Assembly (NCBI GenBank): GCA_017415715.1
Contig: JAFQFD010000022.1
Span: 1 to 46,248, forward strand
Source: Bacteroidales bacterium
Lineage (GTDB): Bacteria > Bacteroidota > Bacteroidia > Bacteroidales > UBA932
Length of the DNA: 46,248 nucleotides
Reading direction: 5' to 3'
Positions 3,197-6,690 of the stretch are shown one piece after another. Made by a program: the position numbers and the translations under genes. Below the pieces are notes generated by a model. The model was not told where the DNA came from and did not search any database. It saw only the letters and a program-made list of their open reading frames with translations. The number at the start of each line of letters is the position of its first letter. The stretch's first letter is position 1.

Positions 3197-6166
3197 TCAT
3201 AGTTTATTCATGTAACACAGATAACGGAGTCCTACCCTTGGCCACTTGAACCCGAGTTTCTTGAGTTCATTGACCGTAAAGTCGTTGTTTATAGGAACAT
3301 CCCTCGACACCGCTGCCATCGAATTGTAGAATCCCAGCACAGCAACATCTCTGTCGTCTTTGCAAGCCTTAAGTTTCCTTTCAAAATCACACTGCGATAC
3401 TTCCTTGACTCTGAAAGCATACTTCCTGCTCAATGTCTTGATAGTACATGTGCGCGGGTTATAAAGGTGATACACATTGTTCACCTTCTTGTGGAAGCAC
3501 AATATGACGAACGCCTCGGCACAGGCATCTACCTGGGTATAGTCGATTGTATAATCTGCTATCCGCTCTCCGTACACACCTACTTTCAAAAGTCCCTTGC
3601 AACGCTGTACAAAGCCGTTTGTGTGTGCATTTATCTGGAATTTTCCATCATATGTCCTCCATGTCAGATTGCCGATACGATAGATGTTTGCCATAAGTCC
3701 TTCAGCCCTTGCCTGGAGGACAAGCTCTTCTGCCTTATATTTTGAATGGATATATACATTCTGCATGTACTTCTGACCGATATTCAGACAGAATTCATCA
3801 AACTTGGCATCTGGAGATGTCTGCTCGACTGTTCCTGATCCGCTGACACTTGCCGTCGATGTGTGATGAAGAATCGCTCTGGCATCCTTACAGAAGTCAA
3901 TGACATTTTTAGTGCCCAACACATTGGTACGTTCAAAATCCTCGTAATGTCCGGCATGATTTACTCTCGCTGCAGTATGAATGACCATGTCCACTTTGCC
4001 GACCAGCTTGGCGTACATCTCATCGTCAAGTCCGAACCGCGGCTTCTCTATATCACCCTCTACAACTATATGTTTGAATCTGTATTTCTCTTTAGGGAAA
4101 TAATACTCTATGATGCGGTTCAGCTTCAGATTGTCCCTTACGAGGCAAATGACCGTTACGTCCTTGCCATTTAATTCTCTTAGTATGTGAGAGCCCAAGA
4201 AACCTGTTGCGCCAGTCAGGAGAATGCATTTAGGATCATGATGCGTATCGCGATTTGCATTTTGACTCATCAGTTCATTGACATTTACCTCATCATTGCC
4301 TATAGATTTACGCTCAAGTGACGAAAGATGCATTTCCAGCAATTCAACAGTTGGATTCGTATATATATCCTGCGCCTGCACGCCTATAATCTGAGCTGCC
4401 TGCATAGCTGCAAGACTGTCACCTCCAACATCAAAGAAGTCATCCTTTATGCTCAAATGCGTACGTCCAAGTATTTCCTCAAACGCATCAACGATCTTTA
4501 TCTGCATCGGTGTAGTAGGTGGCGTATATTCAGCCGAATTATTCTGAATCAACTGCTCAACCATCTCGAATGCTTCCTTTCTTCTGATCTTCAGTGTAGT
4601 CGTTTTAGGAAATTCCCTTGAAATGAAGTCGTATTTTACGATCCTTTTATATGAAGGAAGATATTTATTGACTTCATTCAGACCCTTCTTGATATGATTG
4701 ATAACACTTGAATCATTGATATCGACAGGCTGGATTGCAGCGCATATCTTGCCTTTTCTTTCATATACCATGACATCCTTGACTCCGTCAATTGTCATGA
4801 CATGTATTTCAAGTTCTTCCGGATATATGTTCTTTCCGTTTGCAAGAATGATGAGATTCTTTCTTCTGCCTGTAACATACAGGTATCCGTCTTCATCCAG
4901 ATGTCCCAGATCGCCTGTGCGAAACCATCCGTCAGCCATGAACACCTCTGATGTGGCTTCAGGATTCTTGTAATATCCCAACATGACACAATCACCTTTG
5001 ACGATGATTTCCTGATCTTCAATCTTTACCTCCATGCGTGAAATCGGCTTTCCTACAGACCCTAAGCGATTTGCTCTTGGATAGTTAGTCGCTACTAAAG
5101 GAGCGCACTCGGTAAGTCCATAACCCTGATATATATGTACACCAAGCATGTCAAATGTTTCCGCAACTTCAAGACGCAGAGCGGCTCCTCCAACAACGAT
5201 GCTGGATAGATTTCCTCCGAACTTTTCAAATACGCTCTTGTACAGCTTTCTCCTGATATCAATATTGAAACGCTTGAGCGTTTTATGAAGTTTTACTGCG
5301 ATTGCAACCTTGCGTCTGTTTTCCGGTGATTCTAATCCATCCCTGATCTTTTTGTGGAATGCCTCAGCAATCGTAGGGACGACAAGGATGATTGAAGGCT
5401 TGAAAGTGTTGATATTGGAGACAATGTTTTCAAGACGATCGTTGATACAGATTGTAATTCCACGACACAGCATTCCTAGGTGTCCTATCGTGAGTTCATA
5501 AGTATGATGGATAGGCAACACAGACAATGCGACAGGAGGGCAAGTGATATTCTCAAGAATATTCATCGTGTAATATTCAGACATATTGGCAGTGATATTC
5601 TTTTGAGTGAGCATCACTCCCTTGCTGACTCCTGTCGTTCCTGACGTGAAAAGTATTTCAGAAAGTTCTTCGGGATTGATCTTTGGTAGTGATACTGATG
5701 GGGTCTGAAGTATTTCCAGAAAATCATTACCATCTAATCGGACTACCTCGATCTTCCGTATTTCATCTTGTTCGACAACCTGCAAAAGATCTTCAAATTC
5801 ACTTGAACTGAACACAATGTCGACGTCACCCAGGTCAAAGATATTAAGAATCTCATGTCTTGAAAGCATCTTGTCGATTGGAAGAACAACGTTTCCGCTG
5901 CATGTAATACCTAGGAAAGTTGTAACCCAATGATAGCTGGTTGAGCCAACGATGGCTATGTGTTTGCCGTAATAGCCCTTATTCACCATCCATGAAGCAA
6001 TAGCCTTGACATCACGCGTAAGTTCAGAATATGTCTTGTCAACTATCAGCTCATTGACAAAATACCTGTATGCGACTCGATTGCAATATTCCCTGTCGAT
6101 TTCATCAAGGAACATCTGCAGATCGGTCAATTTATGCAGATTTGTGATAAATTCTTCCATAGTCAA
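3197..6166 (-). CDS. adenylation/carrier/thioester-reductase enzyme (carboxylic-acid-reductase-like)
   Basis: It is predicted to activate a carboxylic acid with ATP, load it on its own phosphopantetheine arm and release it as an aldehyde or alcohol with NAD(P)H. Domain order: AMP-binding, about 1-535 (A3 loop FTSGTTGVSKGV at 173-184; YGLTE at 349-353; GWFRTGDLG at 413-421; GRRKNLIILANGKN at 433-446; TTTLKIRRKE near 522-531 likely carries the catalytic Lys); carrier domain, about 555-620 (GGDSL, attachment Ser584); reductase of the short-chain dehydrogenase type, about 645-989 (GATGFLG at 652-658, TSTAS at 769-773, Tyr805-x3-Lys809). The LPIHHTYE motif at 217-224 resembles long-chain acyl-CoA synthetases, so a fatty or aryl acid is more likely than an amino acid. 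There is no condensation domain and no partner enzyme or phosphopantetheinyl transferase nearby. A structured RNA lies in front. Substrate is inferred only. Confidence 0.85.
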   Translation of the reverse strand: MTMEEFITNLHKLTDLQMFLDEIDREYCNRVAYRYFVNELIVDKTYSELTRDVKAIASWMVNKGYYGKHIAIVGSTSYHWVTTFLGITCSGNVVLPIDKMLSRHEILNIFDLGDVDIVFSSSEFEDLLQVVEQDEIRKIEVVRLDGNDFLEILQTPSVSLPKINPEELSEILFTSGTTGVSKGVMLTQKNITANMSEYYTMNILENITCPPVALSVLPIHHTYELTIGHLGMLCRGITICINDRLENIVSNINTFKPSIILVVPTIAEAFHKKIRDGLESPENRRKVAIAVKLHKTLKRFNIDIRRKLYKSVFEKFGGNLSSIVVGGAALRLEVAETFDMLGVHIYQGYGLTECAPLVATNYPRANRLGSVGKPISRMEVKIEDQEIIVKGDCVMLGYYKNPEATSEVFMADGWFRTGDLGHLDEDGYLYVTGRRKNLIILANGKNIYPEELEIHVMTIDGVKDVMVYERKGKICAAIQPVDINDSSVINHIKKGLNEVNKYLPSYKRIVKYDFISREFPKTTTLKIRRKEAFEMVEQLIQNNSAEYTPPTTPMQIKIVDAFEEILGRTHLSIKDDFFDVGGDSLAAMQAAQIIGVQAQDIYTNPTVELLEMHLSSLERKSIGNDEVNVNELMSQNANRDTHHDPKCILLTGATGFLGSHILRELNGKDVTVICLVRDNLKLNRIIEYYFPKEKYRFKHIVVEGDIEKPRFGLDDEMYAKLVGKVDMVIHTAARVNHAGHYEDFERTNVLGTKNVIDFCKDARAILHHTSTASVSGSGTVEQTSPDAKFDEFCLNIGQKYMQNVYIHSKYKAEELVLQARAEGLMANIYRIGNLTWRTYDGKFQINAHTNGFVQRCKGLLKVGVYGERIADYTIDYTQVDACAEAFVILCFHKKVNNVYHLYNPRTCTIKTLSRKYAFRVKEVSQCDFERKLKACKDDRDVAVLGFYNSMAAVSRDVPINNDFTVNELKKLGFKWPRVGLRYLCYMNKL

Positions 6167-6239
6167 GCGTCATTTTACTTCTTTGTAGTATAATTACGTA
6201 TTTTAGTTAGACATTAGAGTCTGTAAAATGGCGGGTATA

Positions 6240-6430
6240 AAAAAAATGTAGAACCACTGCCACACCGCTATCAAGGTTCACCACAAACCTTACTCACAAG
6301 TGGAGTGATTCTACATAATCGTAGATACACTTCACCCATTCGTGAGTAGTTCAAGCCATAGTCCTTTTATCTGAGGTGGTGATTCTGATAGCGGTTTAGG
6401 CTGATATGTATCGAGGCATTAAGCCTCACT
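6240..6430 (-). ncRNA. 191-nt structured RNA, 6S-like rod or leader of the reductase gene
   Basis: A promoter ends at 6435 and an 8-T run on the minus strand lies at 6246-6239, so the RNA would be about 191 nt, the usual size of 6S RNA. It folds as one long rod. The closing helix pairs 6386-6395 with 6264-6273 (10 perfect pairs); further helices pair 6376-6381 with 6279-6284, 6342-6347 with 6292-6297, and a terminal 17-pair helix 6323-6339 with 6300-6316 (three mismatches, some G-U). Large asymmetric internal loops resemble the 6S bubble. A GAGGC/GCCTC hairpin sits at the 5' end. Strand 6305-6314 can instead pair with 6248-6257 just before the T run, making a terminator. It could therefore be an independent 6S-type RNA or an attenuator of the downstream reductase gene. 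Neither identity is proven. Confidence 0.6.
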
Positions 6431-6434
6431 ACTG

Positions 6435-6464
6435 CAAAGGTAGTTATTTTTATAACAATAGCAA
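6435..6464 (-). promoter_or_regulatory. promoter of the structured RNA
   Basis: On the minus strand TTG (6464-6462) is followed after 19 bp by TACCTTTG (6442-6435), the full Bacteroidales promoter. Transcription should start near 6430. Confidence 0.75.
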
Positions 6465-6552
6465 TTTATCGAATAAATACTGATTTGGATAAATGAAACT
6501 TAAAAATTATATTTGGTGCAAATAGTATATAATCACGTATTTTCAAAAAATT

Positions 6553-6582
6553 TTGTGTAGTGTGAAAAAATCACTACTTTTG
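6553..6582 (+). promoter_or_regulatory. promoter of the SRP RNA
   Basis: TTG at 6553-6555, 19 bp spacer, then TACTTTTG at 6575-6582. The first base of the RNA helix is six bases further on. Confidence 0.8.
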
Positions 6583-6587
6583 CACTT

Positions 6588-6684
6588 GGGTAAGTCTTAC
6601 ACGACCAGCTCCCTCCAAACTCCCCCAGGACTTGACCGTAGCAAGGGTAGGAGGTCGTAGCGGTGCGATGTAATCAGCTTACCC
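6588..6684 (+). ncRNA. ffs: signal recognition particle RNA (4.5S type)
   Basis: This RNA binds Ffh and guides ribosomes making membrane proteins to FtsY. The molecule is a 97-nt rod: GGGTAAG at the 5' end pairs with CTTACCC at the 3' end, and GACC(A)GCTCCC with the GGGTAGGAGGTC side. The conserved Ffh-binding loops CAGG (6625-6628) and AGCA (6639-6642) face each other around a short tip. The tip is ACUUGACCGU, so the usual GGAA cap is replaced by a UGAC-like one. It is the small type without an Alu domain. A consensus promoter precedes it and a T run follows. Confidence 0.9.
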
Positions 6685-6690
6685 TTTTTT
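6676..6690 (+). terminator. SRP RNA terminator
   Basis: The 3' arm of the rod (AGCTTACCC) runs directly into TTTTTT at 6685-6690, so the RNA itself acts as the terminator hairpin. Confidence 0.65.

Follow-up and report, generated by a model that had tools for sequence, protein, structure and literature searches.

A conserved leader RNA of Bacteroidia with two exclusive folds, probably a transcription attenuator and apparently exchanged between unrelated genes

The leader and its surroundings

The window analysed here, a whole stretch of 46,248 nt from a Bacteroidales bacterium, contains a predicted leader RNA on the minus strand, located between the minus-strand gene of an A-T-R protein and a signal recognition particle RNA. 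The A-T-R protein, a reductase, has the Pfam domains AMP-binding, PP-binding, and NAD_binding_4; no NCBIfam model was above its cut-off among the best 25 of 115 matches. The features of the locus, in the order in which the minus strand is read, are as follows.

6581-6688, plus strand: signal recognition particle RNA (RF04183), an Rfam match, divergent from the leader
6509-6539, minus strand: 31-nt block, possible end of an element, identical in 31 of 31 positions to a block upstream of the copy in Bacteroides sp. GM023 (L081)
6462-6465, minus strand: ATTG, possible -33 element, with a 19-nt spacer to TACCTTTG
6435-6442, minus strand: promoter -7 element TACCTTTG, consensus TAnnTTTG, read from the sequence
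6239-6430, minus strand: leader RNA of about 190 nt; predicted start placed by the promoter, predicted end by the U-run
6413-6427, minus strand: short 5' hairpin GAGGC/GCCUC, from the fold of the window
6386-6395 (5' arm) and 6264-6273 (3' arm), minus strand: rod helix 1 (PB), 9 of 10 pairs with changes on both sides among 29 distinct sequences
6376-6382, minus strand: rod helix 2 (PC), 5' arm UCACCAC, pairs with 6278-6284
6278-6284, minus strand: rod helix 2 (PC), 3' arm GUGGUGA, pairs with 6376-6382
6342-6348 (5' arm) and 6291-6297 (3' arm), minus strand: rod helix 3 (PE), all 8 modelled pairs with changes on both sides
6321-6330, minus strand: 5' arm of the apical hairpin, partner of 6305-6314 in the rod state
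6305-6314, minus strand: switch segment, partner of 6321-6330 (rod) or 6248-6257 (terminator)
6248-6257, minus strand: 3' arm of the terminator stem, directly 5' of the U-run; own pairing -23.4 kcal/mol in the window
6239-6246, minus strand: eight Us of the terminator, read from the sequence
3197-6160, minus strand: A-T-R gene, 987 aa, ATG at 6160, 78 nt behind the modelled RNA

The promoter proposed in the first-pass annotation was recovered: TACCTTTG at 6442-6435 of the minus strand fits TAnnTTTG, which is stated as the -7 promoter consensus in PMC7366714. All pairings named earlier were also found in their places, including the perfect one of helix 1, whose arms 6386-6395 and 6264-6273 are exact reverse complements. 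The two exclusive partners claimed for 6305-6314, the second of them lying before the eight Us, are present in the sequence and conserved in relatives. This segment pairs at 8 of 10 positions with 6321-6330 and at all 10 with 6248-6257 if one G-U is counted. In the terminator fold, GUGGUGA (6278-6284) is situated around the loop of an internal AGGUU/AACCU hairpin. By eye, some of the other family members also have a 5' hairpin resembling GAGGC/GCCUC.

The minus strand from 6434 to 6240 had a folding energy of -70.3 kcal/mol vs. -47.0 ± 4.1 for shuffled sequences (z = -5.7), and none of 200 shuffles was as stable. The plus strand folded about equally well (-68.1 kcal/mol, z = -6.3), as expected, since the leader is an imperfect palindrome. 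The fold itself gives no answer, and the strand was assigned from the promoter and U-run, from the frame downstream, and from the direction in which the models match.

Searched against Rfam 15 at the gathering level, the whole window gave no match except the signal recognition particle RNA, and the leader region searched up to E = 10 gave chance matches only. Among the family members described below, the scan covered 35 of 36 (L128 was left out); nothing overlapped the RNA in the locus L063, in 13 member loci, or in 20 further loci. An Infernal comparison with 6S, Bacteroidales-1, and other Rfam families had been proposed earlier, and no family matched the leader. The models for 6S (RF00013), 6S-Flavo (RF01685), and Bacteroidales-1 (RF01693) had no match in the whole genome. 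The absence of RF01685 carries little weight, since the same search rang in none of 14 control genomes; RF01693 did ring in the control Bacteroides ihuae. Bacteroidales-1 RNA is likewise a structured RNA of Bacteroidales, with 179 model positions, but its model matches neither this genome nor the scanned member loci. Judged against Rfam 15 and the literature, the RNA family is apparently unnamed, although it may be listed among the 3161 candidate RNAs of PMC8040213.

Search for homologues and distribution of the family

Apart from the copy in the window itself, a DNA search of 150 relatives returned a single match, 24 nt long (in G100). The latter was rejected as a chance match: it lies before a tRNA, folds differently, and the covariance model was silent in that genome. 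Close relatives were uninformative because the element is sporadic and apparently mobile, and the refutation named in the first-pass annotation, no conservation of the helices in relatives, would have been misleading had it been applied to them alone. Copies were found farther away. A blastn search of phage records gave a match with 70% identity in MT838557, an unverified human-gut scaffold (L063), and scans with a core pattern turned up clear copies in Dysgonomonas sp. PF1-14, a Coprobacter MAG, Bacteroides sp. GM023, and Bacteroides fragilis Q1F2. The pattern scan of genome contigs produced 19 matches, of which four were kept (L070, L071, L081, and L085) and 15 were dropped by eye, since they showed no rod and, some 105 nt farther downstream, no GTGGTGA to pair with. 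The true loci in the viral pattern scans amounted to one of five matches, one of nine, none found, and one of one; the true locus was always L064, and the rest were mostly chance matches. L064 is not counted as a member, its RNA being identical in sequence to the Dysgonomonas copy L071. L078 (from a genome) and L065 (viral) had a loosely similar string without the rod and were dropped.

A covariance model built from three copies found the leader in 14 of 393 genomes of the order, the own genome included. A second model, trained on 18 copies, found it in seven of nine genomes of one genus and in seven of 395 genomes of the class, again including the own one; the searches of the 393 and 395 genomes were run with strict filters. 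With laxer filters, the second model applied to 38 chosen genomes recovered all 23 known positives and two of the 15 others, and four genomes had three leader copies each. One member from the one-genus search (L114) was missed in this laxer search. Covariance model R2, with a training set that included the window sequence itself, matches the window at 6239-6404 with 161 bits. The set analysed below comprises 36 members (35 distinct), 18 of which trained the second model; four matches of the laxer search (G554:C162, G390:C14, G556:C22, and G556:C1) lie outside it. The family comprises homologues across Bacteroidia.

Plasmid searches gave no match for one leader, a single 34-nt match outside the RNA for a second leader, and no match for the L081 protein. 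The model was also applied to 30 loci upstream of signal recognition particle RNA in the same genus (L003-L032), where it matched the own locus only and none of the 29 others, so this RNA is not a conserved neighbour of the leader; no match was found in L034 either. The small signal recognition particle RNA of Bacteroidales itself (window 6581-6688) was found in 72 of 81 genomes.

Conservation of both folds, the promoter, and a downstream frame

In the alignment of 30 members (29 distinct), both partners vary and yet remain paired in 35 of the 37 rod pairs; among 18 aligned members, changes on both sides were seen in 31 of 37 pairs. Paired cells made up 92.9% of the rod in the 30 rows, compared to 61.9% in shuffled and 31.4-51.5% in slid controls. 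Helix 2 was paired in 100% of cells, with changes on both sides in all seven pairs, and the apical hairpin (alignment helices 5-6) in 85.8% and 89.3% of cells. The alignment had been fitted to the rod structure, which favours the rod, but it was the three-copy model (built from closely similar copies) or its successor that had first picked out the divergent members.

The test of the terminator was independent of the rod alignment: the 18 nt before the U-run were paired with apical arms. The mean stem energy was -20.2 kcal/mol with the member's own arm, -13.5 with the arms of other members, and -11.7 with shuffled tails. The own pairing surpassed at least 90% of the cross pairings in 27 of 35 members and all of them in 13. 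Poor scores of L106, L116, and L126 were counted against the attenuator, although in L116 and L126 the script had misplaced the U-run; L106 is itself weak. In a column test of the terminator stem, 54 cells changed on both sides vs. 27.5, and 71.3% of cells were paired vs. 62.1%. This falls far short of the result for the rod, one reason being that several rows had the apical arm misaligned. The U-run was interrupted in several members, e.g., in L071 and L081. The rod was the free optimum in the member folds examined, with the exception of L126, which did not fold as a rod. Both competing folds are thus shown to be conserved with compensatory changes, far beyond shuffled controls, which bears out the covariation check that had been suggested for homologous leaders.

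The 100 nt preceding the modelled RNA contain TAnnTTTG in 32 of 36 members, compared to 3.5 expected. Frames of at least 60 aa that open with ATG on the same strand were equally frequent: in 32 of 36 members one begins 4-142 nt past the RNA, whereas the rate of such frames at random positions of the same loci, on either strand, was 30%. The members with no such frame in that range were L099, L108, L113, and L114; the downstream frame of L113 looks broken near its start. A stricter frame picker (at least 70 aa, first ATG after a stop, overlaps removed) left only 25 of 36 members with a frame downstream, missing frames that were otherwise shown, e.g., in L106 and L128. Some of the downstream frames, e.g., that of L126, may be false. 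The nearest upstream frame showed no bias, lying on the same strand in 10 cases and on the opposite strand in 19.

Downstream genes, leader exchange, and the attenuator reading

The proteins encoded behind the leader are unrelated. They include the A-T-R protein, a DUF4352 protein, TerB-like and LuxR-like proteins (both below threshold), and many proteins with no match in Pfam or NCBIfam. For 10 of the downstream proteins, PADLOC found nothing and NCBIfam gave three matches, each far below the cut-off. By a crude test of N-terminal hydrophobicity, 19 of 25 downstream proteins looked like exported or membrane proteins, compared to 40 of 112 other frames of the same loci, a comparison set that may include false frames. 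The genes do not share one downstream pathway, so no ligand can be guessed from them. Conversely, one protein family stands behind the differing leaders L081, L106, and L115; an HMM built from these LTPEYYTNWIGASFF proteins had no match in any of 325 class genomes, a set without a positive control.

Closely similar leaders were found before dissimilar genes. For L103 and L105 the identity is 95% over a stretch that begins 70 nt ahead of the modelled RNA and runs 13 nt past it; for L063 and L085 it is 87%, with the similarity stopping at the RNA; and the window and the copy of Bacteroides sp. GM023 are 88% identical from position -150 to 40 nt behind the RNA. Within each of these pairs the downstream genes were dissimilar by blastp. 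Twelve leader pairs were aligned in all. Two pairs with related genes stayed similar into the gene, and eight of the other 10 lost similarity before both start codons; the exceptions were L081/L070, where it runs 7 nt past the start, and L101/L108, where it runs 21 nt past the L101 start. The unit of promoter and leader therefore appears to be portable and to be swapped from gene to gene. L103 and L110, from two species of one genus (G540 and G641), share the leader together with an identical 113-aa downstream protein, their DNA being 98% identical over 1056 nt, which suggests a recent transfer.

Two copies are associated with IS1595-type transposases, most member loci spanning only about 1.5 kb on each side. 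The GM023 copy (L081) lies 1.4 kb from such a transposase gene. The MT838557 copy (L063) is inside an element that has an IS1595-type transposase and whose terminal repeats agree in 33 of 34 positions. This element (L063:1555-4495), on a scaffold filed as phage, also has a 65-aa frame and encodes a protein of 184 aa that is hydrophobic over a stretch near its N-terminus. The 31-nt block at 6509-6539, which lies within the stretch shared by the window and the GM023 copy, was found, with up to three mismatches, in one of 150 genomes, the own one, and there was no second copy of it in the window. Behind the U-run of the window, the 40 nt at 6199-6238 still resemble the 5' region of the GM023 gene, as would result if the reductase gene had been placed behind a leader formerly attached to a different gene.

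We consider the leader to be, with reasonable probability, a cis-acting two-state transcription leader, i.e., an attenuator, in an apparently portable unit with its promoter. It looks like a transcription attenuator because it combines a promoter, a gene on the same strand, and a conserved competitor of the terminator. The arrangement seen in the first-pass annotation (promoter, rod, exclusive terminator, U-run, and gene in the same direction) was supported and proved to be conserved across the class: the exclusive stems include a terminator with U-run, and the RNA has its own promoter in front and a same-strand gene behind.

The first-pass annotation had also considered a 6S RNA. The 6S RNAs, including 6S-Flavo (RF01685) and 6S of B. 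thetaiotaomicron (PMC7366714), share with the leader a rod of about 190 nt, a Bacteroidales genome, and a vegetative-type promoter, and in the window a TAAGGUUUG string lies opposite a large bubble. Nevertheless, that this is the 6S RNA of the lineage is highly improbable. Neither 6S model matched the genome, and the leader, sporadic in the order, virtually restricted to the own copy among the 150 relatives, and present in up to three copies per genome, with varying neighbours, is not the lineage-wide core gene that 6S would be. No conserved promoter-mimicking central bubble was found either, its 5' side measuring 21-30 nt in 18 of 30 members and 7-13 nt in the other 12. We give as little credence to a riboswitch dedicated to the substrate or product of the reductase, although the leader does stand shortly before that gene. 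The acid or aldehyde of the reductase had been named as a possible ligand; this idea was not supported, as other members precede unrelated genes. In a search of 250 same-genus genomes at E 1e-60, 51 matched the reductase, all but the own genome and G301 in the ligase part only. The G301 protein, 74% identical and the only other full-length homologue found among these 250 genomes, has another gene directly upstream (TPR and LuxR-like by eye), and the leader was not found in this 83% complete genome. To judge from these neighbourhoods, the reductase is incidental to the leader.

A free-standing small RNA acting in trans, with the U-run as its normal end and the gene as a travelling companion, would account for the own promoter and the strong terminator stem in nearly all members, for the rod, which alone would make a stable RNA, and for the four members without a nearby frame. 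This explanation is unlikely, as in the great majority of members a same-strand frame starts close behind the RNA, differing leaders precede one rare protein family, and the plain end of a small RNA needs no conserved competitor of the terminator. The same competition, together with the conserved promoter and U-run, points to an RNA and argues against a part of a mobile element whose palindrome would help it move, either in the form of folded single-stranded DNA or as an RNA of the element, and whose promoter would drive the cargo gene. The exchange of leaders between genes, the sporadic distribution, and the transposases near L063 and L081 with the terminal repeats around the former agree with such a part, yet the 31-nt block is single in the window, and we regard this origin as quite improbable. 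Integron attC sites, too, are long imperfect palindromes linked to the exchange of small cargo genes. The leader differs from them in having a promoter before it and a U-run behind it and in sitting at the front of a gene.

For the attenuator, the following mechanism can be proposed. In the rod state, the 5' arm of the terminator would be hidden, and RNA polymerase would run into the downstream gene; in the state with the terminator stem and U-run, transcription would stop before the gene. The choice between the two is presumably regulated. Since the folds examined, L126 excepted, settle on the rod as their free optimum, we take it as the probable default and ON state (read-through), and the terminator would need a trigger; the balance may be shifted by a factor that binds either the conserved 5' arm or the internal loop AA/ACCU. 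The unit is found in front of unrelated genes, of which many apparently code for exported proteins, and twice inside or near IS1595-type elements; in the window it now stands before the A-T-R gene.

Transcription attenuators and riboswitches with expression platforms, such as the trp-type leaders and the SAM- and TPP-type switches, normally remain with the pathway that they sense. The leader resembles them in being promoter-proximal, in having an exclusive antiterminator and a U-run terminator, and in having a gene directly behind. Unlike them, it has no known ligand or leader peptide, its single architecture stands before genes unrelated by pathway, and it apparently moves. A broader possibility, which we put forward tentatively, is a portable expression valve: one RNA switch, responding to a single cellular signal and carried by mobile elements across Bacteroidia, placed before unrelated exported accessory proteins. 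If so, newly acquired genes would fall under ready-made common control. A conserved leader with two states, passed around among unrelated accessory genes whose products are often exported, would give the mobile cargo of Bacteroidia, a major group of the gut, a general means of control. As nearly identical leaders precede different genes, the switch is directly testable.

In one member locus, a second RNA occupies the place of the gene. DUF805 RNA (RF03081), labelled cis-regulatory in Rfam, has a copy directly behind the leader of L108 (L108:1723-1790, 55.9 bits). It is short, differs from the leader in structure, and has no overlap with it. It begins 73 nt behind the leader, where a gene would usually start, and two leader-type RNAs are arranged there in series.
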